A stretch of DNA of 64,000 nt, from contig CM049320.1 in NCBI GenBank assembly GCA_026874595.1, forward strand, positions 21,275,714 to 21,339,713. The letters run 5' to 3'. The notes beneath the pieces were generated by a model that was not told the origin of the DNA, did not search any database, and was given only the letters and a program-made list of their open reading frames with translations. Source of the stretch: Sipunculus nudus (lineage: Eukaryota > Annelida > Sipuncula > Golfingiida > Sipunculidae). Position 1 is the stretch's first letter, and each line of letters begins with the position of its first letter. The position numbers were made by a program, and so were the translations under genes. Positions 1,321 to 30,330 of the stretch are shown in pieces.

Positions 1321-1784
1321 ACAAAAACAACAGGCTTGCCCGTGTGAGGTATGCCGTGCCTGTACCTCAGCCCTTCGATCAGGCCGGATCACTGGGATGG
1401 CCTAGGTAAATGCTTCCTTCATGTCCCTGGCGTCTGCTCCATCGTCGATCCTGACATTCCAAGGTACTAGTCCGTGAATCCAGGCTTACTAGGGGATCAA
1501 GAGGATTCACCTCCTTCCAAACAAGTCATAAATATCCAACGTTATAACGGTACGCCAGAAAAAACAGCCGCCGCCTATGTAAACAGTGCCGGCTTATAAT
1601 AGAGGACACACGTACACACACACACGCATATATATATATATATATTACTGTACACACATGTAGGCTAAAGTATCGCATAATTATATATATTTGCAAATGC
1701 TTAAGTTTGTATATCATTTAAAACGATGTACAGGTATGTATATTGTTATAATTTGTTTATTTGTCTATTTAGTTATATGTTTAT

Positions 1785-1826
<42 letters not shown>

Positions 1827-2738: not shown

Positions 2739-2754
2739 GGGGGGGGGGGGGGGG
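2739..2754. repeat. Poly-G tract (16 G)
   Basis: Homopolymer of 16 G on the plus strand, one of many G or C runs in this window. The flanks show no clear element termini. Confidence 0.95.
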
Positions 2755-3599
2755 CTTCCAGAATCAATCGGTGATTGAATACATCTAGTTCATATTTCTT
2801 CTGTAGATGAAACGTTTCTATTCCTATATGTGAAAATGAACAAGATAGTATGGAACACAATATCAAAGAAAAAATAGGAAAACTAAAAACTTATGTCTAA
2901 TATCTGGCAATGCAGAGCACTCACCGCTCGAGGAAGAACTTTAAAATCTAAAACTCTCATCTCAAATAATTTATTGTATGTCAGTTTATCATGTTACAGA
3001 TAATTATTAAACAGAAATATAAAAACAATAAAAGCACATATATGGAAAAACTCAACGCCTAAAAAAATATGATAAGACCAATCAGCCAAGGAAGTATGAA
3101 ATTACAGACACAGAAACTCAAGACATTGCATTAAACATTATTGGGTTAAAATAATTTGTAACGGTTCTATGCCTGTATGGTATATTTTATAAATATTAAA
3201 TATCTTGGAAGTAATTACATGGATGTAAAAGATCCCGCTTACAAACACTGAGGTCGTAGAAGAGGAAATCCATTCCATTTATAATTATTCTTAAGACAAG
3301 TATATTTTAAAAGCCCTTGTATAGATATGGTTTAAAGGGGATCAAAGATGATTTTTTTCAATGACAAAGGGTATTTCTTGAAAGCCCAAGAATTGATACA
3401 GAGATATAACTTAAATACGAATTTTCTCGAATCGTAGTTTGTCTAAAACAATTTCAAAACAATAGGAAAATATTTTGATCCATGAAAAGTGAAATTTAGT
3501 AATTTGCACATCAAGCAAAAAGTCTTGTGAGGTTTCATGTGACACTGGCTCCAATGTTTCACAGAGTAAATGTTTAACCCCCTCTATTACACACTAATA
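2755..3599. other. Non-coding, no recognised feature
   Basis: AT-rich sequence without a supported ORF or repeat. Confidence 0.5.
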
Positions 3600-5345
3600 A
3601 ACAAAAATACCAAGAGCCAACTGCTCTTTCAAAAATATGTATGATTATCTAATGAAAAAAATGCTAAAATATCTTTCCTGAATTTTCTTAACCATACTAT
3701 AATACATCTAGAAAACGAAATATCAGTAATAATGGGAAGAGGTGATTAAAATAAACACATCGATCACTGGAAGAGTTTGCATGATACGTTACAAGTGTTG
3801 TACACTTTATACATTAATTTGATACATTTTTTTGTATAAACTTTGTGTTACTAATCACACCTTACATGCTGTGTGAAACAAAGAGCCAAGGAGATATAAT
3901 CTAAATACGAAGGCCTATTAATACTTATATAGCATATCGATTTTGTTGGACCCTTCTTTGGGTTCTGCCATGGGTATACGCAGTTTGTGTTATTTCCAAG
4001 TGCAACACTTGTAGAGCGCCTTTTCACTTCAAGTTCCTCTACCGAATAATCCCTTTAGAGAGAGACTATACAAAATGATACTTAGTAGATAGTTCTGACT
4101 TTGAATATTGTAATAGACGTATATTTTAATATAAATATATATTACGCTTTTTGGTATGAATTTAATAACTTTCCAAACGTATTTAATGAGAGTCGGATCT
4201 CCGTCACAATTAGACAAGTGATTTTCGGTGAACACGAAAAATACTAACAGAAGAAATCGGGAGATTTTTTTAAGTTATTTGATAATACAAGAAAACTTTG
4301 TATCATGTCTCAATGCGGAAATATCTTTTCTGAATATTCTAAACCATACTATTATAGATCTAGAAAACAAAGTATCAGTTATCATGCGACGAGGCGAGTT
4401 AAATAAATACATCGATTACTTGAAGAGTTGGCGTGATACGTTACAAGTATTGTACACTTGATACCTAATTTTTTTTATAAACTTCATGTTACTAGTTACT
4501 CCTAGTGTTGTATGGAACACGGGGCCAAGGAGATATAATCTTAATACGAAGGCATAGTAATACTGATATAGTGTATCGATTGTGTTGGACAAACATAACC
4601 CTTCTTAAGGCTCTGGCATGGGTAAACGTAGTTTATGTTATTTCCAATTACAATACCTGTAGAGCGCCTTTTCACTTCAAGTTCCTCCATCGGATAATCC
4701 CATTTAGACAGAAAATATACAAAATGTAACTTCAGTAGATAGTTCTGACTGTGAATATTGTTATAAAAGTATTGAATCTCAGGAGCACAGGTTCTACTTT
4801 TTTCGATATACATTACGGTTTTTTGTAGGAAAGAAATATCTTTCGAAACGACTTTAGTGAGAGTCAAATCTCCGTCACAATTAGACAATTGATTTTCGAT
4901 GAACACGAAAAGAATTTAAGAAGGAACCGGAAGTGTTTTTAGTAATTTGATTAAACAAGGAAAACTATGTATCATGTTTAAATGCGGAAATATCTTTCCT
5001 GAATTTACTAAAGCATTCTAAAAGAAATCTAGAAAACAAAATATCATTAATGATGCGAAGAGGCGAGTAAAATAAATACATCGATCACTGGAAGAGTTTG
5101 CATGATACCTTAGAAATGTTGTACACTTGATACATTATTTTTTGTATAAACTTTGTTTATGTTACTCATCACACCTTACATGTAGTTTTCAACACAGCAC
5201 CAAGGAGATATAATCTTAATATGAAGGCATAGTAATACTGATATGGCATATCGATCTTATTGGAGAAACAAACCTTTCTTAAAGTTCTAACATGGGTTTA
5301 CGTGGTTTATGTTATTTCCGAGTGCATTACCTGTGGAGCGCCTTT
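3600..5345. repeat. ~650-bp tandem repeat, three copies
   Basis: The block around CTAGAAAAC recurs at 3708, 4360 and 5029 (spacings 652 and 669). In each copy it is followed by a GAGATATAATC block and then a segment ending CTGTAGAGCGCCTTTTC. Copy 1 runs about 3,600-4,255, copy 2 4,256-4,925, and copy 3 is cut off near 5,345. ORFs overlapping the units (4,029-4,235, 4,228-4,461, 4,505-4,906) are not shared in frame between copies and resemble no protein, so none is called as a gene. Confidence 0.8.
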
Positions 5346-5902
5346 TGTTTACTAATTTCATGATTTCAAATTGTATATTTTTTGTCTGCTACGTTACGAT
5401 GTTTCTTCTTTTTTCGTGTCGTAATGAAAAGAAAAAGAAATAAATAATAAATGTACTTATTGTCTGAGACGAGAAAAATAGGAGGAAAGTCTATAAAAAA
5501 ATTTAAACGTCCTGAGACAGCTTTTTCCTTTGAATACTATCATATTAAAAAACTGATTACATTAACTTAATTCCGAATGTTATCGCACAGATAATACGCA
5601 TTATTTTTAACCGAGTTTGAAGTGTTTTTTTTTTGCTCTTACAAATACAATGGTTGTTTATGGATTAATCTTTAGAATCTGGTTTAAAAGACATAAACAG
5701 GAAGTTTGTCCATTTAATATTTCACGAAATATCAATCAGTTAAAATGTGTCTCAAATGATACATCCTATGTTTATCCAAGGATGGTGTCTTGTCTTGATA
5801 TAGTTCTAATTTCATACACGGTGCATCCATTTATCAATTAGTAATCATATTTTTTAATTTGAAATCCTATGATTAATCTAGATGGAGGCATTCGCCGAGC
5901 AT

Positions 5903-5957
5903 AATGGAAGCTTCCAGAAGAAGCCCACTATTGAGCAATGGTGGGGAAGCTTCCATT
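5903..5957. repeat. Short perfect inverted repeat (13-bp arms)
   Basis: AATGGAAGCTTCC at 5,903-5,915 is exactly complementary to 5,945-5,957 with a 29-nt loop. GGCATTC lies outside both arms as a direct repeat, which could be a short element footprint. Confidence 0.6.
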
Positions 5958-6335
5958 GTGGCATTCACGACAAGGTGTAAAGGTCACGGTAAAAATAAAT
6001 ATCAAATGCAGTTCTGGGAAATAATACCAATATTGTGCCCAAATTTCGACTTTTGTAAATCACCCATGTTGGAGAACTAGCGCAAGCGGAGAAAAGGAAA
6101 AAGAGTCAACTTAGGGGTCTTCCCATATAGTTCCTATCGGTTCAAAAAAATAACCCAAATATGAAAGGAAATTAACCCATTAACCCGTATAAGCCTCCCC
6201 GTTCTACGGGGAGGGGGGGGGGGGGGCTTAATTATATATCAACTTACCGGTATGCTGCGACCGATATGATTTTCAAAGGAAATTCCCGACAAAGTCCACA
6301 AAAAGTAAATATATGCATGTCTTTGTAAGTATTTA

Positions 6336-6338
<3 letters not shown>

Positions 6339-6374
<36 letters not shown>
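6339..6374. repeat. (TA)n microsatellite
   Basis: Uninterrupted AT dinucleotide run. Confidence 0.98.
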
Positions 6375-6378
<4 letters not shown>

Positions 6379-6826
6379 AGGGACTGTAGGTGTGAAGTCT
6401 GTATTGAGTAAGGATAACCAAGTGATTAGAATACAGTATAAGTGTCAAGCATTGTGGATTCAGGGGTTTTTTTTTGCGCGCGCGGGAGTAGAATAACCCA
6501 GGAGACATTGGAGAATATCCCACACTGCGCAGACTCGGACTCACAGGAGTGCGACTTTGATGTTAAGGGATTGTTGTAGCCTTAATCCGACCTCCACAAT
6601 GCACCGGGGCTTCTGGTTACATCAGTGGCGTAGGTATAAATATAATCGGGAGGAACAGGTAGTCCGTTAAGCTATGTTGGATAAGAATCGTTTATAGGCA
6701 AATAACATAAACATGGATTTTTTTTTTTGTTAAGGACTTTACGAAATAAGTTATATTTTGTAAGCATGCACATGTGGAATATAAATAGAAGACCTTTCCT
6801 TAAAATGTAAAGAAGTTTGTTTTTAA

Positions 6827-7160
6827 AGTTTGACAGTTGAGACAAGTAGTCCCGGCCGTCCCACAGTGCCAACACAGAGGAGATTCGCTTCGAGTAGAAA
6901 TTACCTCTGGCGGAAGTGTACGAAAATCTGAGGTTATATCAAGAATTGAACATTTTGTCTTTGAGGCTGTGAAGGTGATCGCACCAGTTTAGACAGATAG
7001 ACATAAATCTGGTTACCAGTTACCCAGAGATTACCACTGACTTTGGACGGACCACTTTAACCTACTCTTGTGGCCACAACGGGAATCGAAACTGGGTCGC
7101 CGGCTAAGAGTGATTTTTTTTTTTTTTTTTTTTTTGCTACACACTGCACCACTCAAATGT
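6827..7160 (-). mobile_element. SINE-like element with Pol III B-box
   Basis: Read on the minus strand, the complement of 7,081-7,096 gives CCCAGTTTCGATTCCC, a good tRNA B-box, preceded by a tRNA-like 5' region that is interrupted by an A-run (T-run at about 7,113-7,135 on plus). The 3' end reads GCCGGGACTAC then TCTCAACTGTCAAACT. That end recurs at 57,433-57,460 in plus orientation, showing a dispersed family. The A-box is not clean. SINE is the favoured reading; a composite tRNA-fragment repeat is the alternative. Confidence 0.5.
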
Positions 7161-7324
7161 TGCTCGATATATCAGCTTTTTATCAATTATTGTGTTTATA
7201 ATTTAAGTTGTATACTGATATTTGCAGCAAAGACTTTCATACAGTTCATACATAGCAGGCTGGTTAACGTTATTGTTTTAATTTATTTAAATGACATGAA
7301 TCATTTAATCCTCAGCTGACTGTA

Positions 7325-8060
7325 AATCACCTGAGCTTTAGCGATCACACTTTGTCCGTCGTCCGTCCGCTTGTCCGGCCGGCCGTCCATAACCAGGGCA
7401 CATGTTGTAACCGGTAGACCTAGAAACTTCTAGCTAAACATCCAGGGAGGTCCTAGACAACCCCTTGGAAACCTGAAATTAGGTCATGGTGACCTATATT
7501 TTGTGACCTACGGGCCGAAAACATGATTTTGAGCACCATGAAACTCAGACGGGGCACAAATTGTATAAATTAGGCCTAGAATCCTCTGACGTAACATTAA
7601 GGGAGTTCCTATAGGCAAATGTCCATGGAAGAGTGAAATTAGGTCACTTTGACTTATATTCTGCGACCTATAGGAAAAGATGTCATATGAGCACCCTGAA
7701 TGTCAGATGGGCACAAATCGTATCTGTGAGGTCTAAAATCTTCTTAAATAAAATTCAGGGAGGTCCCAGGCAAATATCCTTGAAAATCTTAAATTAGGTC
7801 ACTGTGACCTACATTCTGTTACCTATTGGCTAAAAAGTGGTTTGACCACAAAAACAGTCAAATGTGGCACAGAATGTATCCAATTGGCCTAGAATCTTCT
7901 GACCTAATCTATGCAAACCTGCTACATTACAGGCTAAAACATAATTTGAGACTGCTAACGTCCGACGGGTACGCATTGTATGCTTAGGCCTAGGTCCTGG
8001 GCAAATCTCCTTTGAAATTTAAAATTAGGTCATGGTGACCTATATTCTCTGAGCTATGGA
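7325..8060. repeat. Repeat carrying four ERE/IR3-type nuclear-receptor palindromes
   Basis: The stretch opens with a GTCCGTCGTCCGTCCG pyrimidine/GC block of a type I associate with mollusc interspersed repeats. Four degenerate modules follow. Each contains AAATTAGGTCA-nnn-TGACC and then TATATTCTGTGACCTA-like sequence. The palindromes are at 7,481-7,495 (AGGTCATGGTGACCT), 7,641-7,655 (AGGTCACTTTGACTT, imperfect), 7,796-7,810 (AGGTCACTGTGACCT) and 8,027-8,041 (AGGTCATGGTGACCT). No ORF is present. Whether any site is bound is unknown. Confidence 0.75.
7481..7495. promoter_or_regulatory. Perfect AGGTCAnnnTGACCT palindrome (nuclear-receptor IR3 site)
   Basis: Exact match to the consensus estrogen-response-element half-sites spaced by three bases. 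The same 15-mer recurs at 8,027-8,041, and a second perfect variant is at 7,796-7,810. Function is inferred only from the motif. Confidence 0.5.
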
Positions 8061-8529
8061 CTAGAAACATGATGTTAAGCCTTATGGCTGATGTCAACTG
8101 ATCAATGACCAAAATAAAACAACTATTAATGCTTTTTTTATTCCCTAGAAAATTCAGATGACACTTTTTTGTTTCGTTTCATTTTACAGACTACAATTCT
8201 AAGGTTTTCTGTTAATATTTTAGTATCGTGAATTACCTACACTGAGCTCCCCTAACTAATAAATCTCGTGCCATATATAATATGCAGATTTGGGTAGGAT
8301 TTCAAGATTACATAGATTTTAAAACAGTGTGATTCTAAGGATCATGCTTCAACGTTATCTTAAATATATATTACCATTTGACTGCTTTCTCATTAAGTCT
8401 CAAAAAGAAGAGAGGACCTAAATTTGCAATAATACTGAAAAAAAGGCAGAAGAATCCTTAATTAACAGCCTGGATACAACGTTTTGCTCCACAAAATGAG
8501 AAAGAAACATTTTTTATTGGATTTAAAAA

Positions 8530-9215
8530 CTTCGCACTTGTTTACCGATCTGACCTTGACCTTACTTAAAATTTCATCAAATATGAGCTGCAACTGACCA
8601 CTTATACAAATAATGTTTTTGTGGATCATAAATGGATAGCATGGATAAAACTTTTCACTCAGGACGGGTAGTATAAAAAAAAACAAATTATTTTAAAATA
8701 TCTGCTGTTTCATAAGAGGGGCAATTTTTGCATTAAATTAAATACTTAAGACGTTACAGAAATTTTCACTACCCCTACCTCCATCCTGGAAACACAGATT
8801 TATGCATTTTCTTCGCTTGGGTGGTTTATAAACGAAGCGAACCTCTTTTTCACTTGAATCTGCCCTGACAATAATCCAGAGAGCTACAGCTAACTATTGA
8901 TACCATTAATTAGCATATGAATCACAAATGGACAGCTTGGGTAAAACGTTTCACTTAAATAAAGTTATAACGAAGAAAACTGTTTGAAGGAAATTAAGTT
9001 GCATGCACTTGATGACCCCTCTGACATTGACCTTTCACAAAATATCATTAAGCATGATTTTAGGTTAAAATGTAATTTCTACTCTTACATATGAGGGGCA
9101 ATTTCTTGCAATTTATTAAATACTTATGAAGTGACAATTTTTTTTATTACGCCAACCCCCATCCTAGGAACACAAATTTACACATTTTCATTGCCGGATA
9201 AGTTTATAAAAACAA
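8530..9215. repeat. Degenerate direct duplication inside the left arm
   Basis: ATCATAAATGGATAGC near 8,625 resembles ATCACAAATGGACAGC near 8,923. AGGGGCAATTT at 8,716 recurs at 9,094, and both are followed by a CCATCCT(G/A)GGAAACACA-like block. Spacing differs (about 300 against 378 bp) because the second copy has extra sequence. The right arm has only one equivalent (about 18,800-19,060). Confidence 0.6.
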
Positions 9216-9220
9216 CATCG

Positions 9221-9535
9221 GCTTCTGTGGCTCAGGGATAGATCACCGGACTCAGAGCCGGGAGGTCCTGAGTTCAAATCTCAGCCTAAAGGGATTTAAA
9301 TGAAAATGGCAGGAAGCGAGTGATACCGCCCAGTCAAGTGTTCCGAAACCGGAATGGAACTCTGCAGATGTTAATAAGTAATAGCTTAAGAATTAGATAA
9401 GTCAGCATTAAAAATGAAAGCGGTTACCTCCATGTAAAATTATTTAAAAGAGTGTGTAAAAACATGCCTTCACAAAATATTGCACTTGCGTCCACCGTCA
9501 AAGAGACGTTAAGCCGAAACAAGGTACCAATATAA
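9221..9535 (+). mobile_element. tRNA-derived SINE
   Basis: The head has a tRNA-like A-box (TGGCTCAGGGATAG at 9,228-9,241), an anticodon-arm-like CCGGACTCAGAGCCGG, and a B-box (GAGTTCAAATC at 9,270-9,280). An unrelated body of about 250 bp follows, ending near AAGGTACCAATA. The body and lack of a tRNA acceptor end argue against a functional tRNA gene. The element is absent from the equivalent place in the right arm, so it inserted after the inverted duplication or was lost there. Confidence 0.75.
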
Positions 9536-10334
9536 ACTTTCTAGGCGATGGGGTGAGCAATTCGTCTGAAACCTCTCCTGGTCATAGTCTATAATAAATA
9601 TTAATGAACTATATTTATTTTTATATGGATTATAAATTTAGTTAGTTTGATAAATCGAGTCACTCTCCATGGCTAATATGGTGTGTTCGGTAGTGTCTGT
9701 AGAGATGGGAAACCTCTCCTTCTATAAGGAAAATTTCGGCATCACTAGAAAAAAAATTCTGAATTACCTTAAAATGGCCTCACTTATACGAAAATACCAT
9801 ATTAAATCTTTATTCTTTCATAGAACCAACATTACCGTTTCTTAAGAACTCAGCCATAAAAATTAATTTTTTTAGATGTTTTCACCCAAGCATAACAAAA
9901 ATCCGAACCGCCGTGCATAGAATATTAAAATAGGAGAAAGAGTGGCTTTGCTGATGAGGAGCTTTACAAGAATTTACGTTAATTTACATTTAGTTACCAG
10001 GATACTTAATTTGATTTAGCCCGCCAGCTGAGACCCACACAAAAAGTACAAGTCGAATGAAAACCATAACGGCAATTCAGACTGGCCTAAAGTCTCATAG
10101 AAAAGTCTTCTTAAAGACCACGCTGAATCAATACTTTGTTCCCACGTCTTTGTACAACTTTTATCACAATGTTTATATTAAAGTTATTCCATTAGTAACT
10201 AAAAGCCAGCAACTCTTGAAAGAAGCAGCGAAAGATATGTGATATTTTAAGAAACTATAACGGTGTTTACTTTTTGTAAAAAGTCGGGAATTACGATGGC
10301 GTACGTCCCCTGAAGCGATTGTAACTGTTTATCC

Positions 10335-10816
10335 ATGTGTGACGTCACGTAACACAGGTTTAGTAATAGGGACGTATGTGTGACGTCACATTACCCATGT
10401 TATATAGGAGAGCCTTATGTGTGACGTCACATTATACATGCTTCCTAGAAGAGACGTATGTGTGACGACACGTAATTCATGTTATATGGGAGAGCAGTAA
10501 AGGTGATGTCACGCTATCCATGTAATATAGGAGAGACTCAGTGTGACGTCACATTATTAACATTATTAAGGAGAAACGTATGTGTGATGTCATATTATAT
10601 ATACATAATATATAGCAGAGACGTATGTGTGACGTCACATTATCCATGTTATAAAGGAGAGACTCAGTGTAACGTCACATCATTCATGTAGTATAGAAGA
10701 GCTGCATGTGTGACGTCAGATTATATATATATACATAATATATAGCAGAGACGTATGTGTGACGTCAATAAATATTATTCATGTTGTATAGGAGAGACTG
10801 TGTGACGTCAGATTAT
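10335..10816. repeat. 41-bp CRE minisatellite, left-arm copy (12 units)
   Basis: Units of about 41 bp, each containing GTGTGACGTCACATTA followed by a CATGTTATA(T/A)AGGAGAG block and ACGTAT. I count twelve units, at about 10,340, 10,381, 10,422, 10,463, 10,504, 10,543, 10,585, 10,630, 10,670, 10,711, 10,760 and 10,802. Eight keep the perfect 8-bp palindrome TGACGTCA (the CREB/ATF consensus). Small TA-rich insertions interrupt the array. Confidence 0.9.
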
Positions 10817-11092
10817 AAATAAATATATACACATAGCCCAAAAGCCTCAAATTATAGCAGAATCAAAGATCTTTATCAAATAAAATGTAGGACAGATTAA
10901 ACGGAACGAGTACGATGACGAGAGAAGAAGCAATTTTAAAATTGGGACACCGACCCATTTTCGTTCTTTTTTAAATGAGTAGAATAATTGTTTACAGGGT
11001 TCCATTCGGATACCTGACAAATCTTAATCTAAACACGTCCAACGAATCAGACTAACCAGTTTGTCCAAATGAAAAAATATGCTTCACATGTT

Positions 11093-11310
11093 CAGGCGCG
11101 GATCAAGTTTTTTTTTTTTTTTTTTTGCAGGATTGGGTCAACGGGTGTCATGCATAAAATTGTCTAAAAAAAGGTTATTGATTAAGAGCGGGGATGGGGG
11201 TCTCGATCCCCGACAACCCCCGTCAAGCTTTGTCTAAGAACAGGGTCGTCGGTTGAGAACAGGAGAACCCCCCCCCCCCCTCTCCCCACCACCACCTTGA
11301 TCCGCGCCTG
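11093..11310. mobile_element. hAT-like MITE with 15-bp TIRs and 6-bp TSD
   Basis: CAGGCGCGGATCAAG at 11,093-11,107 is exactly mirrored by its complement at 11,296-11,310. CATGTT flanks both sides (11,087-11,092 and 11,311-11,316) as a target duplication. The interior holds a T-run and a C-run. The right arm has a diverged relative at about 15,780-15,870 (G-run and GACAAATTTCATG block), so a related element was probably present before duplication. Superfamily assignment is inference. Confidence 0.75.
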
Positions 11311-12600
11311 CATGTTATCATAAACAACTACTGGGATCTTCAACTTCTTTAAAGCACAGTAAACCACTTGCGGTCACTTTTTTTTGTGGACATGTGTGCT
11401 GTGCTACTTCCAACTTGTATATAGATAAACATGGAGGGGGTGTTTTCGTTCACTTCGCTGTATGTTATTATGCGTTTCTAATGACACAGGTTTGGCTTAA
11501 CAAAGGATGATGGCAAACTATAGTATAATTGTAATTAGAAATCTTATACGGCCAAATACTATTTACGAATGTTATTATTGAATTGCATATATTTTGTGCA
11601 AATAGAAAAAAAAGTCAAGGTAGAACTTCACAGTTAATAGAGTATCATCTTATGCAATAACAATGTAATTTTAATTCGTTAAAAGAGATGTGGTGATATT
11701 TCAGCTCCAGCATCGGGACTAATTTGATCTAAATCGTACAGAAAAATCGTAGTGAAAAGTCCTTATACCGTCGTATTCGTCACCCGGCTTGCGACAGCCG
11801 GGTTTTAAACTTTATGGAAAATAGCGGCCCTCGATGAAGAATAACTGGGAGGATTAACCAGGGTTCGATAAGGGGATGCGACACGAACGTACACAGGAAC
11901 CATTGTCAAGGTAGGTATGTGTGTGTGGAGGGAGTGCTATGACAATTGCCGGGACGTGCAGCGGTTGAGAAATAACCTTATTTTGCGACCACGCCCAAAT
12001 CCGCAAATTTTAGTATGATTAACATACGCCACTCCTTATACACGTAAGGTCAGAAATGCAACAAAAATATAATCCCCATTATCGTTGTTCTAAAAAAAAT
12101 TATTTCTTTCAAATCAGTAAAACTTAATTAATTATTCATGAATGAATCATATAGGTTTTTCCATCATCTTTTAAGCAAACAGCTTATGCATTTTATCTTT
12201 TCACTATTCAAATAAAATCTAAATTCCAGTCCCTATGTGATGTCCCGATGTAAGAAGTGAAACCACAAATCGGTCAAAGAATATCAAACTGGAAAAAAGG
12301 GAAACTTTTCATGAATATATCAAATGGGCCGCAGTGGAATTTGTTTAAAGGAAAATGGTTTCGCTTTGACTTCCGCCTGATACTGGATAGCCGACATTTT
12401 TATCTACCCTATACGATGTTCTTAAGCTAAACGCTAGCTAGCAGATTTAAGGTTATACAGGATCAGTTTTCCGCTCATACATATTCATTACACAGAATAC
12501 CTGTCGTAATCTTACACGCTGACAGAATGTATTTACGGTCTGAAGACCATGTTGCAGCCGAACTTTTTGTCCGCGAATTTTATACATTCCTTAGGAACGT

Positions 12601-13156
12601 GCTTTGTTTCAACGAAACAATATTGCTTGATCAATACGAAACTGGTCCAAGACAAAAAAAAGAAATATGAGCGAAGAAACACTAAAATGAGCACCGTTTC
12701 GGGGGGGGGGGGGGGTTAAAAATTTCACATTATGAAGTTGCGCGATACAGCAACCATGTGGCGGGTGCACTAGATTATTCTAAGCCACTTATTGCGTCCG
12801 ATGCAAGTTTGTCTCCACTTGTGTACATGTTTAAAGCCTCGGTCACAACCCGCTGCGGTCACCGCAAACCGTAGATTACCGTGCGGTTTTGGGGACCGCA
12901 CGAATACTATAAACAAGCGGTTTAAGAAAAAATATTGGCAGATAGCATGATATACCAAGCAGAAAACATTATATTTGATGTATGTTAACAGGCCCCTTTA
13001 ATTGATAAGGTTGATACCGATGCTTCCATATCTTGCAAGGGTTAATTGTAAAATCATATTTCAATGATATATCTAGCATCAAGCGGCATAATGCTGACAT
13101 AAACCCCCTGATCATTTTACTATGATATATTTTGTTGTTAGTTTTCGAGAAGTCTT
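12601..13156. other. Unique part of the inverted-repeat spacer
   Basis: About 550 bp separate the left arm from the spacer element. It includes a G-run near 12,701-12,715 and a GC-richer patch (12,840-12,900), but no supported ORF or RNA gene. Confidence 0.6.
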
Positions 13157-13262
13157 CAGTGGAGGATCCAGAATCTCGGGAACAGGTGGGCGCTAATACT
13201 TGTTTAGCGGTTGATTGGTATTTTAAATAAATACTTTCTCAAGATGTGTATATATTTGTTGG

Positions 13263-13308
<46 letters not shown>

Positions 13309-13890
13309 TAATATTATTTTTTGTTTGTTTTGTAGTACAATCTAGAGGATTTTTTACAGCATATGTTAATAACAGGCACACAAGGGAGGGTTATGGGATG
13401 GAATGTTTAAATATGAAATGTAGTGGACAGTTTGTGGCAGGTTTCACAAAAAAGATCAGGAATTTCTGTTCCTGAACTACTATTCTCTTAAATGACTTTG
13501 CAAACGTAGTCAAACTTAAGGGTGGTGTCTCTCCTATATAAATTAGATAATGTTGGTTCACGTGTGGCCGGCTTTAATAATTACATTTCTTCAAAATAAG
13601 ATATTAAGTGGAAAGGCCAAATATACGATCCATCCCTCAGTAAAGAAAGTAGGACTGCTAATAAATCAAATAACTAACAGAGCTGTTCACAAAAATCCTG
13701 TAAGTTTTAATAAGAAGGTTCTCATCTGTGGATAACTTAATAATTGTATTTGCTGAGGCATTAGCAGATCTTTGAAAAATGGAAATTAGTTTTAAAAAAC
13801 TGGGGAAAATTGATTACATGACAGATGTTATAGCTGGACGGTCCGGTGGGGGGGGGGGGGGGGGGGGGCGTGCCATGGGGTCCTCCACTG
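13157..13890. mobile_element. hAT-like element in the inverted-repeat spacer
   Basis: CAGTGGAGGATCC at 13,157 and GGGTCCTCCACTG ending at 13,890 form near-perfect 13-bp inverted termini. AGTCTT precedes and AGTCCTT follows, an imperfect duplication. The interior has a long (TA)n tract (13,264-13,298), an AT-rich body and a G-run (about 13,848-13,868). A 61-codon ORF (13,550-13,735) shows no transposase motif, so the element appears non-autonomous. Confidence 0.6.
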
Positions 13891-14704
13891 AGTCCTTAGG
13901 GAACGTATAAAATTCGCGTACAAAAAGTTCAGCTACAACGGTGCACCTCAAATGATTTTATCGTGGCAGTTCAAGAAAATCTTAACCAGTCGGTGTTTTC
14001 TTCAGACCATTAGTACATTCTTTCAGCGTGTAGGATTACGACAGGCATTCTGTGTAATGAATATGGATGAGCGGAAAACTGGTTCTGTGTAACCTTAAAT
14101 CTGCCAGCTAGAGTTTAGCTGAAGGCCATCGTTCAAGATAGATAAAAATGTCGGCTATCCAATATCACACGGAAGTCAAAGCGAATCCGGTTTCCTTTAA
14201 ACCACTTCAACTGCGGCCCATTTGATATATCCATGAAAATCTTCCCTTCTTTCCAGTTTGATATTCTTTGACCGAATTGTGGTTTCACTTCTTACATCGG
14301 GACATCACATAAGGGCTGGATTTTCGATTTTATTTGAATAGATAAATAGAAAAAATGTCCTAAAATATTTTGTTCAAAGATGATGAAAACCTATATGATT
14401 CATTCATGAATAATTAAATAAGTTTTATTTCGACTGATTTTAAAGAAATAATTTTTTTTTGGAATACCGATAATGAGGATTATATTATTTTGTTGCATTT
14501 CTGATGTTACCTGTATAATGAGTGGCGTATGTTAATCATACTAAAATTTGCGGATTTGGGCGTGGTCGCAAAATAAGGTTATTCCTCAACCGATACACAT
14601 CCCGGCAATTGTCATTACACTCTCTCCACACACACATACCTACCTTGACGATGTCTTCGGAGTCCTTTCGTGTCGCATCCCCTTATCGAACCCTGATTGG
14701 TTAA

Positions 14705-15112
14705 AAGATCATTCTCGACGTGTAGTGAGAATTAAACATACCTATCAAAGGTGTTTTATTTTTTTAAGTCTGCTAGAAAACCATGTATCTGACATATTTG
14801 ACGTGACTTTGAAACTTGTATGCTAAAAACGGATCCAGGTGTAACACAGGATTATCTGCATTTACCAAAAACTTCACTATTTTGAACGGCTATTTCGTCA
14901 TTTTCAAACTGGGTTAGTATGTGCATGGGAAAACAACAACAAGCCGTGTAGGACAAAACAGGCATTTCAGACCCGGCATTCCGCGGTCGGTTTACAACTG
15001 TCATGCAATGAGTTGGGTAGGTATGATATCCCCACGGACCTTTCACGTGTCGTGAGTGCAAAATACTAGGTTTTATTCGTCTTGGGAGAGCAACGCACTC
15101 GTGGGGTGCTCT
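14705..15112. mobile_element. TTAA-flanked insertion (piggyBac-type target), right arm only
   Basis: TTAA occurs at 14,701-14,704 and again at 15,113-15,116, with about 408 bp between. The left arm has the unoccupied site with a single TTAA at 11,854-11,857 between the same flanks (GAACCCTGG and TCCTCCCAG in reverse). This gives direct evidence of insertion with TTAA duplication. Terminal similarity (AGATCATTCTCGACG against AGAGCACCCCACGAG) is weak. A 69-codon ORF inside resembles nothing, so it is non-autonomous. The piggyBac link rests on the TTAA target only. Confidence 0.72.
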
Positions 15113-16489
15113 TTAATCCTCCCAGTTATTCTACATCGGGGCCGCTATTTTCCATACAGATTAAAACCTGGCTGTCGCAGGTCGGGTGACGAATACGACG
15201 GATACGGTCAAAACTGAACAAGTACACTTTACACTATTCTTTACGATTTAGATCAAATTAGTCCCGATGCTGGTGCTGATATATCACTACGTATCTTTAA
15301 ACGAATTTAAATTACAATGTTATTGCGTATGATGATACTCTATTAACTGTGAAGTTCCACCTTAACTTTTTTTCTATTTTTTAGTAAAGTTGCACAAAAT
15401 ATATGCAATTCAATATTAACATTCGTAAATAGTTTTTGGCCGTATAAGATTTCCAATTACAATTATACTTTAGTTTGCCTTCATCCTTTGTTAAGCCAAA
15501 CCTGTGTCATTAGAAACGCATAATAACATACAGCGAAGTGAACGAATTAACGAAAACACCCCCTCCTGATCAACACATCTTTTATTTTGATTTAAACAGT
15601 CAAACCACACACGCAGCTTAAAGTCGGCTATTCACATACCTTTCTAGTAGTTTTTAAGTGATTTCTGATTTACTCTGGATACATGTAGAAAATACCTGCC
15701 AAGAAACATTTCAATGACGCCCCTGTGGTAGAAATACGAGTTTGTCTATCTACAAGCTGGAATTAGGGTGAGGTATGAGTGTCTGTGGGGGGGGGGGGGT
15801 CTCCTGCTCCCAACCAAATACCTTGTTTTAGACAAATTTCATGGGTTTAGACCCCAACCTCCGTCATGATTCGTGGACGTGTTTGGATTAAGATACGTGT
15901 CAGTTATCCGAATGGGACCCTTTAAACTACTCCGCTCATTAAAAAAAATCACGGGTCGGTGTTACAATTTTGAAAATGCTTCCACGCTCGTCTTCCTATC
16001 TTCCTAGATCTGGTCTATACTCGGCCCGTTTCATCTGTCCCACATTTTATTTAATATAAATCTTTTATTCTGCTATAATTGTAGGCATTAGGCGAGGTCT
16101 AAGTAAAGTATTAACCGCCTTATACTTTGCTGATGCACGTCCACTATACTACAAACTTTCTCCGCAGAAAAGGTTCTCGCCTGGACGCTGTCCTAGAGGT
16201 ACTTTCTTGTCTCTTCCCCTTTCCTTTATAGAACCCTGACAGTTTTATTTCTCGAGTTTCTCGAAACCACTCTTGCGCCTGCCCTTTTTCGTACACTCTA
16301 AAACACGGATGTCATACGGGCTCCAACGCAGAAACCACGTACTATTTGATTAAAAAAACCTAACGTGTGCGTTAGCCGCGCGACAATCGCACACATATAA
16401 AAAGAACATGGCTTTATAACTTGTTGGATTTTCGCCGAGCGGCAAACCCATGCCAAAACGCATATTTAGAAAAGCATCCTTAAATGGAT

Positions 16490-17945
16490 AGTGTTAAGTC
16501 ACACATACGTCTTTCCTATATAACATGGAAAAAGCGACGTCTCACACACGTCTTTCCGTTATAACATGGGGAGCACCACGTCACTCATACGTCTTTCCGT
16601 TATAACATGGGGAGCGCCACGTCACTCATACGTCTTTCCGTTATAACATGGGGAGCGCCACGTCACTCATACGTCTTTCCGTTATAACATGGGGAGCGCC
16701 ACGTCACTCATACGTCTTTCCGTTATAACATGGGGAGCGCCACGTCACTCATACGTCTTTCCGTTATAACATGGGGAGCGCGACGTCACTCATACGTCTT
16801 TCCGTTATAACATGGGGAGCGCGATGTCACTCATACGTCTTTCCGTTATAACATGGGTAGCGTGACGTCATTCATACGTCTTTCCGTTATAACATAGGGA
16901 GCGCGACGTCACACATACGTCTTTCCGTTATAACATGGGGAGCGCGACGTCACTCATACGTCTTTCCGTTATAACATGGGGAGCGCCACGTCACACATCC
17001 GTCTTTCCGTTATAACATGGGGAGCGCCACGTCACACATCCGTCTTTCCGTTACAACATGGGGAGCGCGACGTCACACATTCGTCTTTCCGTTATAACAT
17101 TGGGAGCGCGACGTCACTCATACGTCTTTCCGTTATAACATGGGGAGCGCGATGTCACTCATACGTCTTTCCGTTATAACATGGGTAGCGCGACGTCATT
17201 CATACGTCTTTCCGTTATAACATAGGGAGCGCGACGTCACACATACGTCTTTCCGTTATAACATGGGGGGCGCGACGTCTCTCATACGTCTTTCCGTTAT
17301 AACATGGGGAGCGTGACGTCACACATACGTCTTTCCGTTATAACATGGGGAGCGCGACGTCACACATACGTCTTTCCGTTATAACATGGGGAGCGCGACG
17401 TCACACATACGTCTTTCCGTTATAACATGGGGAGCGCGACGTCACACATACGTCTTTCCGTTATAACATGGGGAGCGCGACGTCACACATACGTCTTTCC
17501 GTTATAACATGGGGAGCGCGACGTCACACATACGTCTTTTCGTTATAACATGGGGAGCGCGACGTCACACATACGTCTTTCCGATATAACACGAATAACG
17601 TTACGTCATATATACGTCTCTCCTATATAACATGAATAATGTGACGTCACACATACGTCTGTCTTATATAACATGAATAACGTTACGTCACACGTACGTC
17701 TGTCCTCTATAAAATGAACAATGTGACGTCACACATACGTCTCTCCTATATAACGTGAATAATGTGACGTCACACTGAGTCTCTCCTTTATATCATGAAT
17801 CACGTGTCGTCACACATATTCTCTCCTATGAATCACGTGTAATGTAAAGTCATTCATTAGGCTCTCATTTTAAAATGGGTAATGTGACGTCACACATACG
17901 TCCCTATTATAAAACCTTGGTAACGTGACGTCACACATTGGTAGA
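16490..17945. repeat. 41-bp CRE-like minisatellite, expanded right-arm copy (~35 units)
   Basis: The unit reads CATACGTCTTTCCGTTATAA then CATGGGGAGCGC(G/C)ACGTCAC(A/T) and is the reverse complement of the left-arm unit. Most of the inner section (about 16,550-17,585) is highly homogeneous, with GCGCGACGTCAC replacing TGACGTCA. The outer section (17,590-17,945) keeps left-arm-like units with ATGTGACGTCACAC. A marked variant block (GGGTAG then ATAGGG) recurs at 16,855 and 17,183, an offset of 328 bp or eight units, which indicates a segmental duplication inside the array. The 16,976-17,179 ORF is a translation of the repeat. Confidence 0.93.
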
Positions 17946-18671
17946 CAGGTACAATCACTTCAGGGGACGTACGCCATCGTAATTCCCGACTTTTTACAAA
18001 AAGTACACCGTTATAGTTTCTTAAAAATAACATATCTTTCGCTGCTTCTTTCAAGAGTTGCTGGCTTTAAGTAACTAATGGAATAACTTTAATATAAATA
18101 TTTTGATTAAAAGATGTACACAGACGTGGGAACAAAGTATTGATTCAACGTGGTCTTTAAGAAGACTTTTCTATGAGACTTTAGGCTTGTCTGAATTGCC
18201 GTTATGGTTTTCATTTGACTTGTACTTTTTGTGTGGGTCTCAGCTGGCGGGCTAGATCAAATAAAGTATCCCGGGAACTTAATGTAAATGAACTGAAAAT
18301 CTGTTTTGTGAAGCTTTTGATTAGCAAAGTCACTCTTTCTCCTAGTTTAATATATTTTTCCCGTCGTTTCGGATTTTCGTTATGTTTGGGTGAAAAAAAA
18401 TCATTAAAAGTCATTAATCTTTTTTTTTTTTTTTTTGCTGAGTTATCAAGAAACGGTTATGTTGGTATTATGAAAGAATAAAGGTTAAACATGGTATAAA
18501 AGTGAGACAATTTTAAGGTAATTAAGAAACTTTTTTTATCGTGTGATGTCAAATGTCTTTAGGTCAATCCAGATTTAGGAAAGACGTTTAATCAACGCGC
18601 TTTTGTACAAAGCAAGTCTTTACTGTAAACATATTTCCCACGCGGGTTGCTACAGTTGAATATGGAACGCT

Positions 18672-18729
18672 CAACCCTCTCTGCTGGGGAGCCGGGTTAG
18701 ATCCTTAGCATGGCTTTGAAAGAGGGTTG
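18672..18729. repeat. 9-bp inverted repeat in a right-arm-specific block
   Basis: CAACCCTCT at 18,672-18,680 is exactly complementary to AGAGGGTTG at 18,721-18,729. It lies inside the section (about 18,540-18,770) lacking a left-arm counterpart, so it may mark a small insertion. Confidence 0.4.
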
Positions 18730-19778
18730 TGGCCCGTCTTAAGGCGGGCGTGTTCCCCGTGTCGTAATTTCCCATCTCTACAGACACTACCGAACACCAC
18801 CCTGTGTTTATACACCACCATAGCGAAGAAAATGTATAAAAATGTAACAAATTGTCCCTTATAAGAAAGAGGAGAAATTTTACTTGCACATCAAGTGTAT
18901 GAAACTTATTTTTTTTAATATTTTGTTCTTTATACTAACCATCTTGAGTGGAAAATTTTATCCAAGCCATCCATTTACGATTCACAAACATATTATTGGT
19001 ATCAGTGGACAGCTGCAGCTCATATTTGATGCAATTAGGGCAAGGTCAGACCCTTCAAAAGTGCGTGGTTTATAAATCCAATAAAAACTAATTTTTTCTC
19101 ATTTTCTTGAGCAAAACGTTGTATCCAGGCTGTATATTAAGGATTCTTCTGGCCTTTTTTTCAGCATTATTGCAAATTTTGATCCTCTGTTGTTTTGAGA
19201 CTTACTGAGAAAGCAAACAAGTGGAAAATTATATTAAGGATAACGTTTCAGCGTCAACCTTATAATCCCACTGTTTTAAAATCTATGTATACTTGAAATT
19301 GTTCCAAAATCTGCATATTATATATGTCACCGGATTTAGTAGTAAGGTGAGCTCACTTGAGGTAATTCATGATACTAATATATTAACAGACAACCTCAGA
19401 ATTGAACTCGTTTAAATGAAACCAAAACATAGTGTCATCTGATTTTTTAAGGGAATAATAAAAGCATTAATAATTCGTTTTATTTTGGTCATTGTTCAGT
19501 TGACATCAAAACCATTCTGTAAAGTATTCCTACAGCCGCCTCTAAACCGAGACCGGTAACATTGAGAAACTCTCATTATATTAAATATGCAACATGAAGC
19601 ACAAATCGGATAAAACATCAGCACATAAATTTTTATGGATTCTCACACACGCTTTGGTATATTTCCCGCTTTTAGCCGTAATCACGTATATGCATTGTCA
19701 TGTGTTAGGACTATGATTTTATTAAACTCTAAAAGGTATGATTCACATCACTTAAATACATTAAATCAATTAACGTTT

Positions 19779-20262
19779 GTGTACAGAAGTTGATGGAAAA
19801 TCAGACGGATTGTAGATTTTTTCGCTTTTATTTTGCAAGTGTTTTGAATTTAAAAGAAGTTCGTGCCACTGCTATCATACTTTCCTATTTAAACACATGA
19901 CGGGGACTATGTGTGCCTCTAGGCCCTTGTTGTGTATGAACTGCTGTGTCCTAGTTATAGGATAACATTTCAGCTGTGCAAAACCGTAGCCGGGCTAGTA
20001 GATACCACAGTTGAATATTCTATATGAATTATTCTTTATCTAGTTTCAGGTTGATTGCTTATGAAGCTAGACGAACTTGTCCTTTTCAAAGATAAAAAAA
20101 CATATTACATTGCAACATTGGTCCGCTATTGGTATATTTTACATTGATATATCATTATCTTCTAATCTAAGAATTCCATTGCAAGAGGTACAGTAACGCA
20201 TGTGCGAATGAAAGCAAAAAAAATCTACAGTCCGCATGACCTTCCATCAACTTCTGTACACA
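19779..20262. mobile_element. Foldback/MITE-like element with ~55-bp inverted ends
   Basis: GTGTACAGAAGTTGATGGAA at 19,779-19,798, followed by a TGTAGATTTTTTCGCTTT block, is mirrored by the complement of 20,205-20,262 (ending CCATCAACTTCTGTACAC). Arms are about 55-65 bp with a few mismatches and enclose about 360 bp of non-coding sequence. A clear target duplication was not identified. Confidence 0.65.
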
Positions 20263-21390
20263 ATGGTGTCCATTGTGAAGGTGACATGAGGCATTGAAGC
20301 GGGATGCGACAAATATAGCGGGAAATTCTTACTTGTCAGTCTTCAATAGAGTCCCGTGGATCCACTTTACGCTCAGGAACATGTCTGTAATCGATTTTCC
20401 GGGACTTCGGTTCCATACTATACGATCTCTCCGATAGAGGCTATATCGTCCTCAGTGTCACACGTGACCCGCATTGGTTTACACACAGCGGAAGTGATTT
20501 AACTTAATTTGGCACGTGAAACGGAGAAAACTCGGTAACTTCAACGCCTGAACTAGGGTGGGTGGGAATTTTCTTTCAACCCTAACAGTTTACATATCTA
20601 ATCTTTATACGTCGCTGCAGCAGTGATCCAGATTTAAGCCAAATGTATCACGAGGTCTTCTGCAATGAATTTACCATGATTTAGGCATTTTGCCATAACA
20701 TATTTTGCCCGGGGCTTTCGTGCCTTGCGTCGTTACTGTCCGTCTAATCCCTATGTATAGTCCCGTGTTCTTCCGTTGAGAATAAACCAGTTTCCGTAGT
20801 ACATTTACTGACTGTAGGGGAAGTCAGTATCGAGTCTCCAGAAAAATTGACTGGAAGCTTCAGTGATCTTCTTGAAGGTCAAGATGAGTACATGGAAGTT
20901 CACAATCAACAGCTACAATGGATAAAAAAAAGGTCTTCTTTGACGAGTGAACTCAATTAACTTGAAAATGTAAATATGATAAATAAAAATGGATTAAGAA
21001 AACAAAGATTTCTTCTCATTACGCTTATATGTATTACAAGGTAGTTGTTCTGATCGTTTACTTTTTATTGAAATCCCAAGTTTGATATAATAAGTAGAAA
21101 TAAAATGATAAGTACAAAATAATAATCCAAGATTAACATAAACACGTGTAAGTTGTGACATATGTTAAACATGATGGTATAATTTACATAGAGGTAATTT
21201 TTCCAGAAGAATGTCCTTCAAACGAAAACCTACCAATTAACACCTAAGGTTGTGAAAAACCAAGGCGAACAAAGGGAAAATCGTACCTAAAATTTTATTT
21301 TGCGGTTTCATTAGTAAAATTCAGCAAAGAATTGTCCATGTCCATGTCCGGAAGCAGTACTACACGTTGTGTAGGCATTTTACCCTTTGG

Positions 21391-21392
<2 letters not shown>
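20263..21392. other. Non-coding, no recognised feature
   Basis: No supported ORF, RNA or repeat seen. Confidence 0.5.

Positions 21393-21441
<49 letters not shown>
21393..21441. repeat. (TA)n microsatellite
   Basis: Uninterrupted TA run. Confidence 0.98.
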
Positions 21442-21444
<3 letters not shown>

Positions 21445-21742
21445 GCTGAGGCGTCCCATTACTAAATGGAGTTCACCACAGTTACCTCACCAGTACCTAA
21501 ACGACAAAAATGTGAACTTTCAATAGAAATCTAAGCCAGGTGCATATTACGCCGGTTTGTTGAATGAGAAAAATCTTAAGTGTTTGTCGGGCTTATATTT
21601 CCTATATGAATGTTATTCTGTTTTACGGCAGAAACTGCAATTATTTGATATAACTGCGTATTTCAGACAAACTTGTACGAAATTCGACGTCGACATAGTA
21701 TGAATACGAGAAAAAAAATTTGTCGTATGTTATCTAACATCT

Positions 21743-21745
<3 letters not shown>

Positions 21746-21840
<95 letters not shown>
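21746..21840. repeat. (TA)n microsatellite, ~95 bp
   Basis: Nearly pure TA run with one CA interruption, abutting the left end of the element at 21,838-22,608. Confidence 0.98.
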
Positions 21841-21841
<1 letters not shown>

Positions 21842-22608
21842 TGTTGTCTTCTTATTTGCGGTGGTTTCAAATTCGCGATATTCACCGTCGCTCTCTGACC
21901 GCGAAAATGAAACCACGCAGTTATGAATGCATGTATACCAGGCCATGATCGTTAATTTCAGAAGCTGCCGTTATAATTATAGTTGGCGACAGTTGAGATT
22001 AATCTTCAGCTACGTGATGATGTCCATCGAGCCTCGTGCATATAATTTAAGTGATTCAGGGTGAATTAAAAACAGGGCCCATTAAACATAATATCGGTTT
22101 GCTTAGATGCAAAAACCGTGACCCTTTGCAGGGATGTGCAGACCCGGTTGGCGCGCTGGCAGTGTTTCCTGCAGCCCCGCACAGTTCTGAAGTCTGAAAA
22201 GTGTCAATGCCCCTAATATTTTAAAATTACGTTTATGTGTGCCAAGCCAGTTGACATCCACTGCAGCTTAAAATGAATATTGAGTAGAAGGTACTCTTTC
22301 ACATTGTGCCGTATTTAGTGATTGTTATTAGATAAAATTTGCCACTAAAATAGTGAACGTAGCCGCTGGGGTAGCGCCACCTTGTAACTGTTTAAAGGAC
22401 TCATTCTGTCCCTACTGAAATCATGACGCGCCAAACCATGTTTGATTCGCTATTGATGACGTGAATTTTGAATACAAATAATAATAAAATATACTACTTG
22501 TACTAGACTAATGATAAAGCGCGAAAAAGGAACCCCGTGAAATTTAAAAAAATACAAAAACCGCGAAAATTCAGCCGCGCCGATAAAAAGGCAACCACAG
22601 TATATATA
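21838..22608. mobile_element. TIR element with a terminal stem-loop, in a TA-rich target
   Basis: The left end reads TATACTGTTGTCTTCTTATT. The complement of the right end reads TATACTGTGGTTGCCTTTTT, so the termini are similar inverted repeats and both abut TA repeats. Just inside the left end is a strong hairpin: 21,857-21,877 (TGCGGTGGTTTCAAATTCGCG less one base in the stem) pairs with 21,900-21,919 (CGCGAAAATGAAACCACGCA). The right end has a matching CGCGGCTGAATTTTCGCGG block. No ORF is present. Confidence 0.5.
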
Positions 22609-23930
22609 TCTTACTATTGGTCATAAGATCCCGCAAATGGCGGACATTAAGCATGGTAGTTGCCCTGGGTTCGATGATTGCGCAACGAAGACAAAGTAAT
22701 GACGAAAATGGGGGTAATTTTCACGAAATATCAGGCCAATCTGAAATGTCCCTGTTGACCTAGGCCATGTCCCAAATTACATGTCCTGACGCCGATAAAC
22801 GTCGCGCGAAAAAATCGCCCCAATATGCATCCGGCTTCATCCTAGGATGTGAGCCCTCTCCAAACAAAACCGGTAAAGCACAGATCGTCCAACGAAAGAA
22901 AAGGATAACCGTAACCGGACAGGAATAAGGGTTATATATATTACGGGAAGATCCAGGATGAGCCAATTAAGGCCTAAGTCCAGGCAAAGTTCAGGATTGC
23001 CGATGCTGCATAAAGGTCTACTAAAGGAAATCCAAGGTATCCGTAAATGCCGGACATTAACAGCCACTGTACGGAGGGTCAAGGACAATACCCCGAAGGC
23101 CTCTGCAAGTACAGCAAGTACGGCAAGCCACCGTGAACACTGTTATCCGGCATCTGACTTTGGCAAGACCGGCTTAATTTGGCACATACCTCTCCATTTC
23201 CGTTTGTATTTAGACATTTGACCGGCAATAAGCCAGTAGTTTACCACTGAAACCTCTGAAGAAATCGCCAATCATCCGATTTCCGACCGGGATAAGGACG
23301 AGTCCTGTGCTAATATACCCGCCGGCTATTCGACGGTTTTGCCCACGGGGTACCGTCGGGCGATTCGGCCCTGACTGTGATACTGTGTTTCGCGTTCATC
23401 TATTGTCCAAGGTAGACCTTGTTCTATCACGGCTCATCCGTGGCCTAACTGTACTGCAATAAATTGCTTTAAATATCACATATGCATAGAGGACTATAAA
23501 CATATATCAAATACTTATTTTTAATCATATTAAATTGACATTTCTCATGAAAGTATATGATCTTTGATCTGATAATTAATGACAAAACAAGTTTGGAAAT
23601 TTATGCATCATCATTTCCAGGAAAACTGTCCTAAAGTCAACGGATATTTAAAAGAAGAAATATTGATTTTTTTTCTTTGGTTTAAGTTTTCACAGGATCC
23701 TTTACCTGTTCATTTATATTCAGATAACAGAATACCCGGCGTAATGTTATGAGCCCACAAGGCCAACACAGGGGAGTATAAAGAAGCCGTCTTAATGCAT
23801 ATGTGCCAGTGCACACTGGGTTGACATGATAAATACTTTTCAAGGGTCACTTGAAGTTGGAACCTTTCGCGATTTTTTTTTTCATCTACTTCTTCTGTGT
23901 TGGCTTCATGAAAGGTCTTTAGGAAGTATC
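22609..23930. other. Non-coding, moderately GC-rich
   Basis: Compositionally distinct from its AT-rich flanks and contains GC palindromic bits such as ACCGTCGGGCG near 23,350. ORFs at 22,760-23,088 and 22,958-23,221 have no recognisable domain and overlap antisense to each other. Confidence 0.4.
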
Positions 23931-24870
23931 AAATGAAGCAGTTTAAAGTATGTTCCCGTGTTGTTCCTTTTTTGTTTAACGGTTTATCAGAGTGCCGCAT
24001 CCGTACGATGCAACCTCCACCAATCACTCAAGCTCATCCACACGGCTTTGTCGGCAGCCAACTGTCCGTCTTTCTGCGTGTTCACAATAATCATGAAAAT
24101 AAGCTGATGCTCTCGAAGCATTTCAGTTCCAAACATTTTCATAAAGCCTACGTCATTTATCCAAAACGGAGCCCGTCCGACTTCTCTGCGAGCTGCAAAG
24201 GGCATTTTCGGCAGGAATACGGACGGTGTTTTCTCGATCACTGCGGACTCCGCTGCGATAATGAGGGCTCGGCCGACGATCGCAGGTCACCAAAACCTGT
24301 TTTTAAATCAGCGATTTTCCAATGGCAATTTTTGAGGTCGCAGAACTCGTTAACAGGTCGCCCGTAGATCGCTCGTGCAGCGGCCAACTTGCGATCCATG
24401 TTCTGGCAGCAATCCGACGATTTTAGACGCATTTTGCTTTAAAATTCGGATGGAGGTGGACAAAGCTGTGCGGCCTACGCGATAACTTCGGCCCCCGGCC
24501 GGGCATCTCCTGTCAACCCAGCTTCCAGTTCATGCTCCGATGAAGTGGACTCAGGCTCTCGTGTCATCATCTTAGAAACTGGTTGCTCCCTTGGTCTTCT
24601 TTGGCGGCATCTTAGCTTGGCCCCATCTTGTGCAGTGCTCTTCACTCTGTCAGACTTCAGACGTATGATGTGACAAACATTAACATGCCATATATATACT
24701 CGACGGGTTGATGCCGGAGCCCGCCCGGGAGTTGCCCAGGTGTCTGGCGGGCATCGACAGACCAAATGACCATCGACCGCAACTCGGAAGGCGCCTGCCA
24801 TTATATCGGGCGGCCGTCTCCCGACTACCGACGGCCGCCGGGGCGATTTTTTATCACCATTATTCAATGG
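23930..24870 (-). pseudogene. Unrecognised, possibly decayed coding island
   Basis: The minus strand carries three adjacent ORFs: 24,475-24,867 (130 codons), 24,238-24,432 (64) and 23,987-24,241 (84). Base composition and codon choice look more coding-like than the surroundings. A start codon in a reasonable context lies at 24,608-24,610 and opens MPPKKTKGATSF before a stop. The following acidic stretch REPESTSSEHELEAG is in another frame, suggesting a frameshift. The last ORF ends LSDWWRLHRTDAAL. MPPKK-type starts are common in retroelement ORF1 proteins, but I do not recognise a domain, and the plus-strand ORF 23,933-24,367 (144 codons) is an alternative. I call it a candidate only. Confidence 0.25.
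24809..24839. repeat. GC-rich perfect hairpin (10-bp stem)
   Basis: GGCGGCCGTC at 24,809-24,818 pairs exactly with GACGGCCGCC at 24,830-24,839 across an 11-nt loop. No T-run follows, so it is not a bacterial-type terminator. It may be a structural piece of a decayed element. Confidence 0.6.
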
Positions 24871-25170
24871 GCACCGCCCGATCTCCGTCCGATATGTGAA
24901 AGGTTCGATTTTAAGTGTAAAAACGCTCGACTTCCTGGCACGCTTGGAATTTGGCGACTATCTGGCGATCAACAAATTCGGGCGGAGGTCGTTGGATATG
25001 TGAGATCTACCACCCAGCGAAATGAACTCTGCCCACCCCTATTTACTATATGTCAGTTGATCGGTTCAGCCAATAACAGACTGTGTAGAGGATGTTCACA
25101 TTGAATCATCCAACAGTTCCTCCTGACCAGAAGCGAAACTGAACTTCCTTTTAAAAAAGATAAGCTGAAG

Positions 25171-25200
25171 TATATATATATATATATATATATACATATA
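25171..25200. repeat. (TA)n microsatellite
   Basis: TA run with one CA interruption. Confidence 0.97.
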
Positions 25201-29534: not shown

Positions 29535-29739
29535 CTATGCTATTATAAACGTTTACGCTCCATGTAACACAACGGAGAAGATAGCTTTTTTGAACAACTC
29601 CGAACATATGCGATGGGCGTCTTAGACACCTCGGACTATACATTCTTGATGGGAGATTTTAATTCAGTGATAAATCAAAGTTTAGATATTATTTCAGGGA
29701 AGGAACATTAAAAAAAAAGAGAGTAGAGCTTTCAATGAT

Positions 29740-30324: not shown

Positions 30325-30330
30325 ATATGG

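Follow-up and report, generated by a model that had tools for sequence, protein, structure and literature searches.

Galileo, a transposon of the P superfamily, has extended inverted arms, inside which lie tandem repeats that vary from one arm to the other; according to PMC3573991 most copies have arms of about 0.3-1.2 kb and 7-bp target-site duplications. In yeast, fold-back priming at DNA breaks gives rise to inverted duplications (PMC10622511), and an origin-dependent alternative to this route has been described (PMC10766186). Intra-scaffold palindromes that are defined by gene order and bear genes are presented in PMC5490193 on Folsomia candida. Here we analyse a pair of inverted arms at positions 8089-19508 of a 64,000-nucleotide stretch of Sipunculus nudus contig CM049320.1 (the window), which very probably represents an ancient single-locus inverted segmental duplication and not, as far as this genome shows, a mobile unit.

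As in Galileo, the arms are long and contain tandem repeats that differ between them, but they extend over about 4.5 and 5.6 kb, occupy one locus and show no target-site duplication at 8089/19508. With the F. candida palindromes the locus shares the position of the inverted duplication inside one scaffold, whereas no gene is detectable here. An event of the yeast type would likewise leave a short loop flanked by a segment and its inverted copy; however, the yeast events form dicentric chromosomes, while the present arrangement needs a second join near 19777 and such a mechanism would here be deduced from the layout.

Comparison of the window with itself by BLAST for reverse-complement matches yields two antiparallel, collinear arms, in which 8089-12593 pairs with 19508-13897 (E-values down to 0.0). 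The pairing chain runs from the outer pieces (8089-8690/19508-18916 and 9740-10717/18548-17561) via the middle pieces (10838-11049/16092-15867 and 11433-11857/15566-15113) to the inner ones (11856-12546/14698-13999 and 12551-12593/13939-13897). In five clean segments 2,234 of 2,520 bases are equal and 286 differ, with identities of 84.8, 89.5, 84.5, 93.7 and 89.4% per segment; this count leaves out left-arm positions 8691-9739, 10375-10837 (nearly all of a tandem array), 11061-11432 and 12547-12593. The two large reverse-complement arms proposed in the original prediction are thus recovered as a chain and not as scattered short matches. Its further statement that they are complementary over nearly their whole length holds for the pairing but not for the extent, as the clean alignment comprises 2,520 columns, plus some from the array, versus 4,505 left-arm bases, and 8691-9682 pairs with the right arm in fragments only.

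In the two parts searched, 9683-10334 and 11433-12593, the inner arm is confined to this locus apart from weak matches to one stretch. In the searched genome (1,426,538,692 bases or 1.43 Gb, 153 contigs), 9683-10334 has no match elsewhere, all three rows lying within the two arms. The second inner-arm search, with 11433-12593, gave at least 43 rows, four of which are the arms themselves (40 of 47 candidates scored); the other 39 listed matches, at 66-92% identity over 39-264 bp, are either weak or short, and all fall inside 11770-12034, a 265-bp stretch taken as an old dispersed repeat within otherwise single-locus DNA. Ten other copies of the outer arm part, picked from the genome matches of 8089-8690, were each read across 20 kb. 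None of the ten stretches contains the inner arm, the array or the spacer (E 1e-5), and in none is the outer part repeated in inverted orientation. Nor does a target-site duplication of 5-12 bp adjoin 8089/19508, where one 6/7 match is found about 9 bp outside each end.

The original prediction had left the choice between an inverted segmental duplication and a very long foldback-type transposon to a genome search for further copies with the same ends. This is the right test, and its outcome favours the single-locus duplication. A foldback element would be expected at several loci sharing paired inverted arms, yet the inner arm occurs here only, the weak rows in 11770-12034 apart. An inverted duplication, on the other hand, would carry the same single-locus sequence in both arms, as is the case for 9683-10334 and 11433-12593, and would have a breakpoint inside a repeat rather than at element ends, as is seen in the right arm, which stops at 19777 within a repeat. 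Because the inner arm is restricted to this locus, none of the ten other stretches holds it and a target-site duplication is lacking at 8089/19508, a foldback transposon is unsupported and a one-off inverted duplication is supported. The locus is composed of the following features:

7113-7304, + strand: dispersed repeat extending outward on the left side; 7266-7304 pairs with 19777-19738
7305-8088, no strand: piece of 784 bp consisting for the most part of degenerate 157-bp tandem repeats; its place in the right arm is taken by 229 bp of dispersed repeat (19509-19737)
8089-9682, + strand: outer part of the left arm; contains internal duplications and consists of dispersed repeat as far as about 9600; 8089-8690 is 84.8% identical to 19508-18916
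9683-10334, + strand: left arm, first single-locus part; genome matches in the two arms only
10335-10829, + strand: left-arm array of a 41-bp unit, with 8 perfect TGACGTCA palindromes
10838-12593, + strand: left arm, second part; pairs piecewise with 16092-13897
12594-13156, no strand: original 563-bp spacer; contains a dispersed module of about 75 bp, to which the rows within 12813-12929 belong
13157-13890, no strand: later hAT-like non-autonomous insert, 734 bp, bordering the right arm on its inner side
13897-19508, - strand: right arm as delimited by self-comparison (predicted from 13893)
14699-15112, no strand: right-arm-only insert, 414 bp, with TTAA at both edges (by eye)
16498-17938, - strand: right-arm array of the 41-bp unit, about 35 copies, 7 perfect TGACGTCA
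19509-19777, - strand: dispersed repeat prolonging the right arm outward; halts at the sequence in the next line
19777-20263, no strand: sequence resembling a miniature inverted-repeat transposable element (MITE-like), with inverted ends of about 56 bp; right outer junction; inner module 19838-19946 has at least 22 rows elsewhere

The positions 8089 and 19508, formerly described as sharp outer ends, turned out not to be ends, since homology resumes beyond both and a dispersed repeat crosses them. With 8089-8690 as query at least 63 rows on at least 16 contigs were obtained, two of them being the arms themselves (40 of 65 candidates scored), and the outer arm part is therefore a dispersed, diverged repeat. 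The search with 19509-20700 returned at least 42 rows (40 of 130 candidates scored). Among the matches listed, 17 of 42 are located in 19509-19777 and 22 in the short module 19838-19946, while the remaining ones are the window itself and the query's own inverted ends, 19777-19832 and 20207-20263; given the genomic matches within 19509-19777, the outer repeat extends outward past 19508 to 19777. On the opposite side, 7266-7304 aligns to 19777-19738 with a local score of 47 (best of 200 dinucleotide shuffles, 36), and four of seven genomic loci of the dispersed repeat match within 7113-7305. The right flank 20264-26000 is matched by none of these seven loci, one AT run apart, and no partner of 7113-7265 was found beside the right arm. 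The repeat copy of the right arm hence ends at 19777, whereas the left copy reaches about 7113, some 150 bp further. The apparent left end at 8089 is the point at which the 784-bp piece interrupts the dispersed repeat. This piece has matches in four of the ten other outer-repeat stretches. Its 157-bp repeats may be similar to the satellite-like central repeats of Helentron-type HINE elements as outlined in PMC7492417, a resemblance only, which concerns 7305-8088 and not the inverted duplication.

Two further observations were made on the outer repeat. On contig G000:C7, at about 27.37-27.54 Mb, seven copies are arranged at steps of about 22-27 kb (with one 51-kb gap); four of the seven score equally, which suggests a tandem segmental duplication. 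Within the left-arm outer part, 9217-9283 looks tRNA-like by eye and is possibly a tRNA-derived short interspersed element, with no call by ARAGORN; 9216-9286 matches another outer-repeat stretch at 84.5%.

The spacer between the arms (12594-13896) was likewise predicted correctly, with about 1.3 kb in total and a later hAT-like insertion of about 730 bp. The insert of 734 bp possesses 14-bp inverted ends (13156-13169/13878-13891, 93%) and is flanked by an imperfect duplication, AGTCTT / AGTCCTT (by eye). From its CAGTG-type end motif we take it to belong to the hAT superfamily. As the insert arrived later, the original spacer amounted to about 563 bp, close to the predicted value of about 550 bp. 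All listed genome matches of the spacer lie in the module within 12813-12929 (40 of 604 candidates scored), and outside this module its sequence is provisionally regarded as single-locus. The 75-bp module itself (12832-12911) is present at many loci, often as tandem pairs. Arm-specific insertions, also predicted, include the 414-bp insert of the right arm, whose empty site is visible at left-arm 11855/11856 and which in 14703-15007 matches another locus at 86%. Such insertions suggest that the paired structure is old.

Tandem repeats inside the inverted arms had been anticipated as well, and a 41-bp unit is indeed arrayed in both. In the right arm the array consists mostly of near-identical derived units (TGACGTCG, by eye). 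Since both arms carry the array and the right one contains many such derived units, the array is probably older than the duplication, with its expansion in the right arm coming later. Beside it, a block of about 325 bp (10010-10334) is unusually conserved between the arms. In 80-bp windows the between-arm identity is 89-97% across 10040-10362, 81-88% across 9880-10039 and 84% after. The unevenness of the differences in segment 9740-10374 has a variance matched by none of 1000 shuffles, and the other four clean segments display no significant unevenness (113 to 627 of 1000 shuffles). The block does not adopt an unusually stable RNA fold (z -0.69; 26 of 100 shuffles fold equally well), nor does a clear coding pattern account for it. 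Scanning 10000-10400 for bacterial promoters and terminators, an approach ill-suited to this type of genome, gave one promoter-like site (shuffle mean 1.1) and no terminators. Possible causes of the conservation near 10010-10334 are constraint or gene conversion between the arms. We take TGACGTCA to be the CRE-like (cyclic AMP response element) palindrome. It is conceivable, though improbable, that the paired arms have been kept because the block and the TGACGTCA-rich array act as a regulatory or hairpin-RNA module present in duplicate and subject to constraint or recurrent gene conversion, in which case the inverted pair itself would have a role. Of all parts of the locus the unevenly conserved block beside the array most deserves a second look.

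In the inverted segmental duplication favoured here, the copied segment would comprise part of the dispersed repeat, several kb of mostly single-locus DNA without detectable genes and the 41-bp array. A single copying event would have placed a reversed copy of it at a distance of about 560 bp; the likeliest route would be template switching or fold-back synthesis starting from a broken or stalled end, the spacer forming the loop. Such a process would produce the order arm, loop, inverted arm, and would require one further join near 19777. Afterwards the arms would have diverged and gained separate insertions, and the right-arm array would have grown. Of the two arms the left is probably the parent, from which the right was copied, because the dispersed-repeat copy on the left runs about 150 bp past the point where the right one stops; the difference in length is observed, the direction we infer. 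If the locus were transcribed through, the product could fold into a long imperfect hairpin.

Several points weigh against this interpretation. The MITE-like sequence is located exactly at 19777, and the right arm could have lost its outer part through a subsequent deletion at this point; with such a deletion the argument for the direction is lost and either arm could be the parent. A transposon present in a single copy would look single-locus too, and the fold-back step is drawn from the layout by itself. Furthermore, a weak piece (63-73%) of the outermost part of the dispersed repeat, seen with two of seven loci, is found inside the right arm at 15617-15759, where it has no left-arm counterpart. 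Other dispersed pieces are likewise present in the right arm only, namely 18652-18799 (in four of the ten stretches) and 16176-16304 (in one of ten). Most simply, these would be separate insertions.

Among the alternatives, a small chromosomal inversion with staggered breaks would leave inverted duplicates around the inverted piece, in this case the 563-bp spacer. The inverted duplicates do flank a short spacer, but the paired breaks would have to be separated by about 5 kb while the piece inverted between them is far shorter, and this origin is accordingly judged improbable. Even less probable is a very long foldback-type DNA transposon similar to Foldback, Galileo or Tetris with tandem repeats in its arms. 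Large inverted arms and an internal array differing in copy number, as in the Galileo F copies at much smaller scale (PMC3573991), are what such an element would exhibit. Opposed to this are the single-locus inner arm (9683-10334, and 11433-12593 except 11770-12034), the ten stretches lacking inner arm and inverted partner, the lack of a target-site duplication, the position of 8089/19508 inside a dispersed repeat and the absence of a transposase domain in a Pfam scan of left arm 8089-12600. Inverted joins are a known assembly error, but an artefact such as two alleles set head to head is extremely unlikely here, in agreement with the original prediction, in view of the 6-15.5% by which the clean segments diverge, of insertions particular to one arm with the empty site discernible in the other, of different array lengths and of a right arm without the outer part of the repeat. 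The inverted segmental duplication thus appears to be a genome scar of a common kind and no new jumping element. It illustrates that what looks like a giant foldback element may be composite, with a dispersed repeat providing the seemingly sharp shared ends and a one-off inverted duplication forming the body.

With respect to genes, no Pfam domain matched six-frame translations of left arm 8089-12600 (E up to 1) or of the flanks 1-8088 and 19509-29000 (E up to 0.01). Fifteen open stretches of at least 30 codons occur in both arms, and in 14 of them amino-acid-changing codon differences outnumber silent ones; the exception (11940-12032, minus strand, 31 codons) has three silent differences and one changing, a number too small to carry much weight. 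The absence of Pfam matches in the left arm and the 14 of 15 stretches without a coding pattern were the grounds for rejecting coding genes in the arms. RNA families were rejected as well, as all 11 matches in 6000-22000 at E up to 0.5 involve microRNA models aligned to AT-dinucleotide runs and score below the gathering threshold. ARAGORN detects no tRNA in the window.

Elsewhere in the window, two adjoining open stretches at 29686-31263 resemble by eye the endonuclease and reverse transcriptase of a long interspersed nuclear element. A weaker inverted pair is found at 44763-44983 / 49341-49568 (71% across 230 columns). An array of a 42-bp unit (TGTTTTATCATGATATAGATG...) occupies 56260-57155, shortly before a 3.8-kb array of CATCTTCTCCTCC-type repeats (57642-61418), which is nearly pure pyrimidine on the + strand, has a GC skew of about -0.94 and leaves several frames open, up to 1,311 codons.

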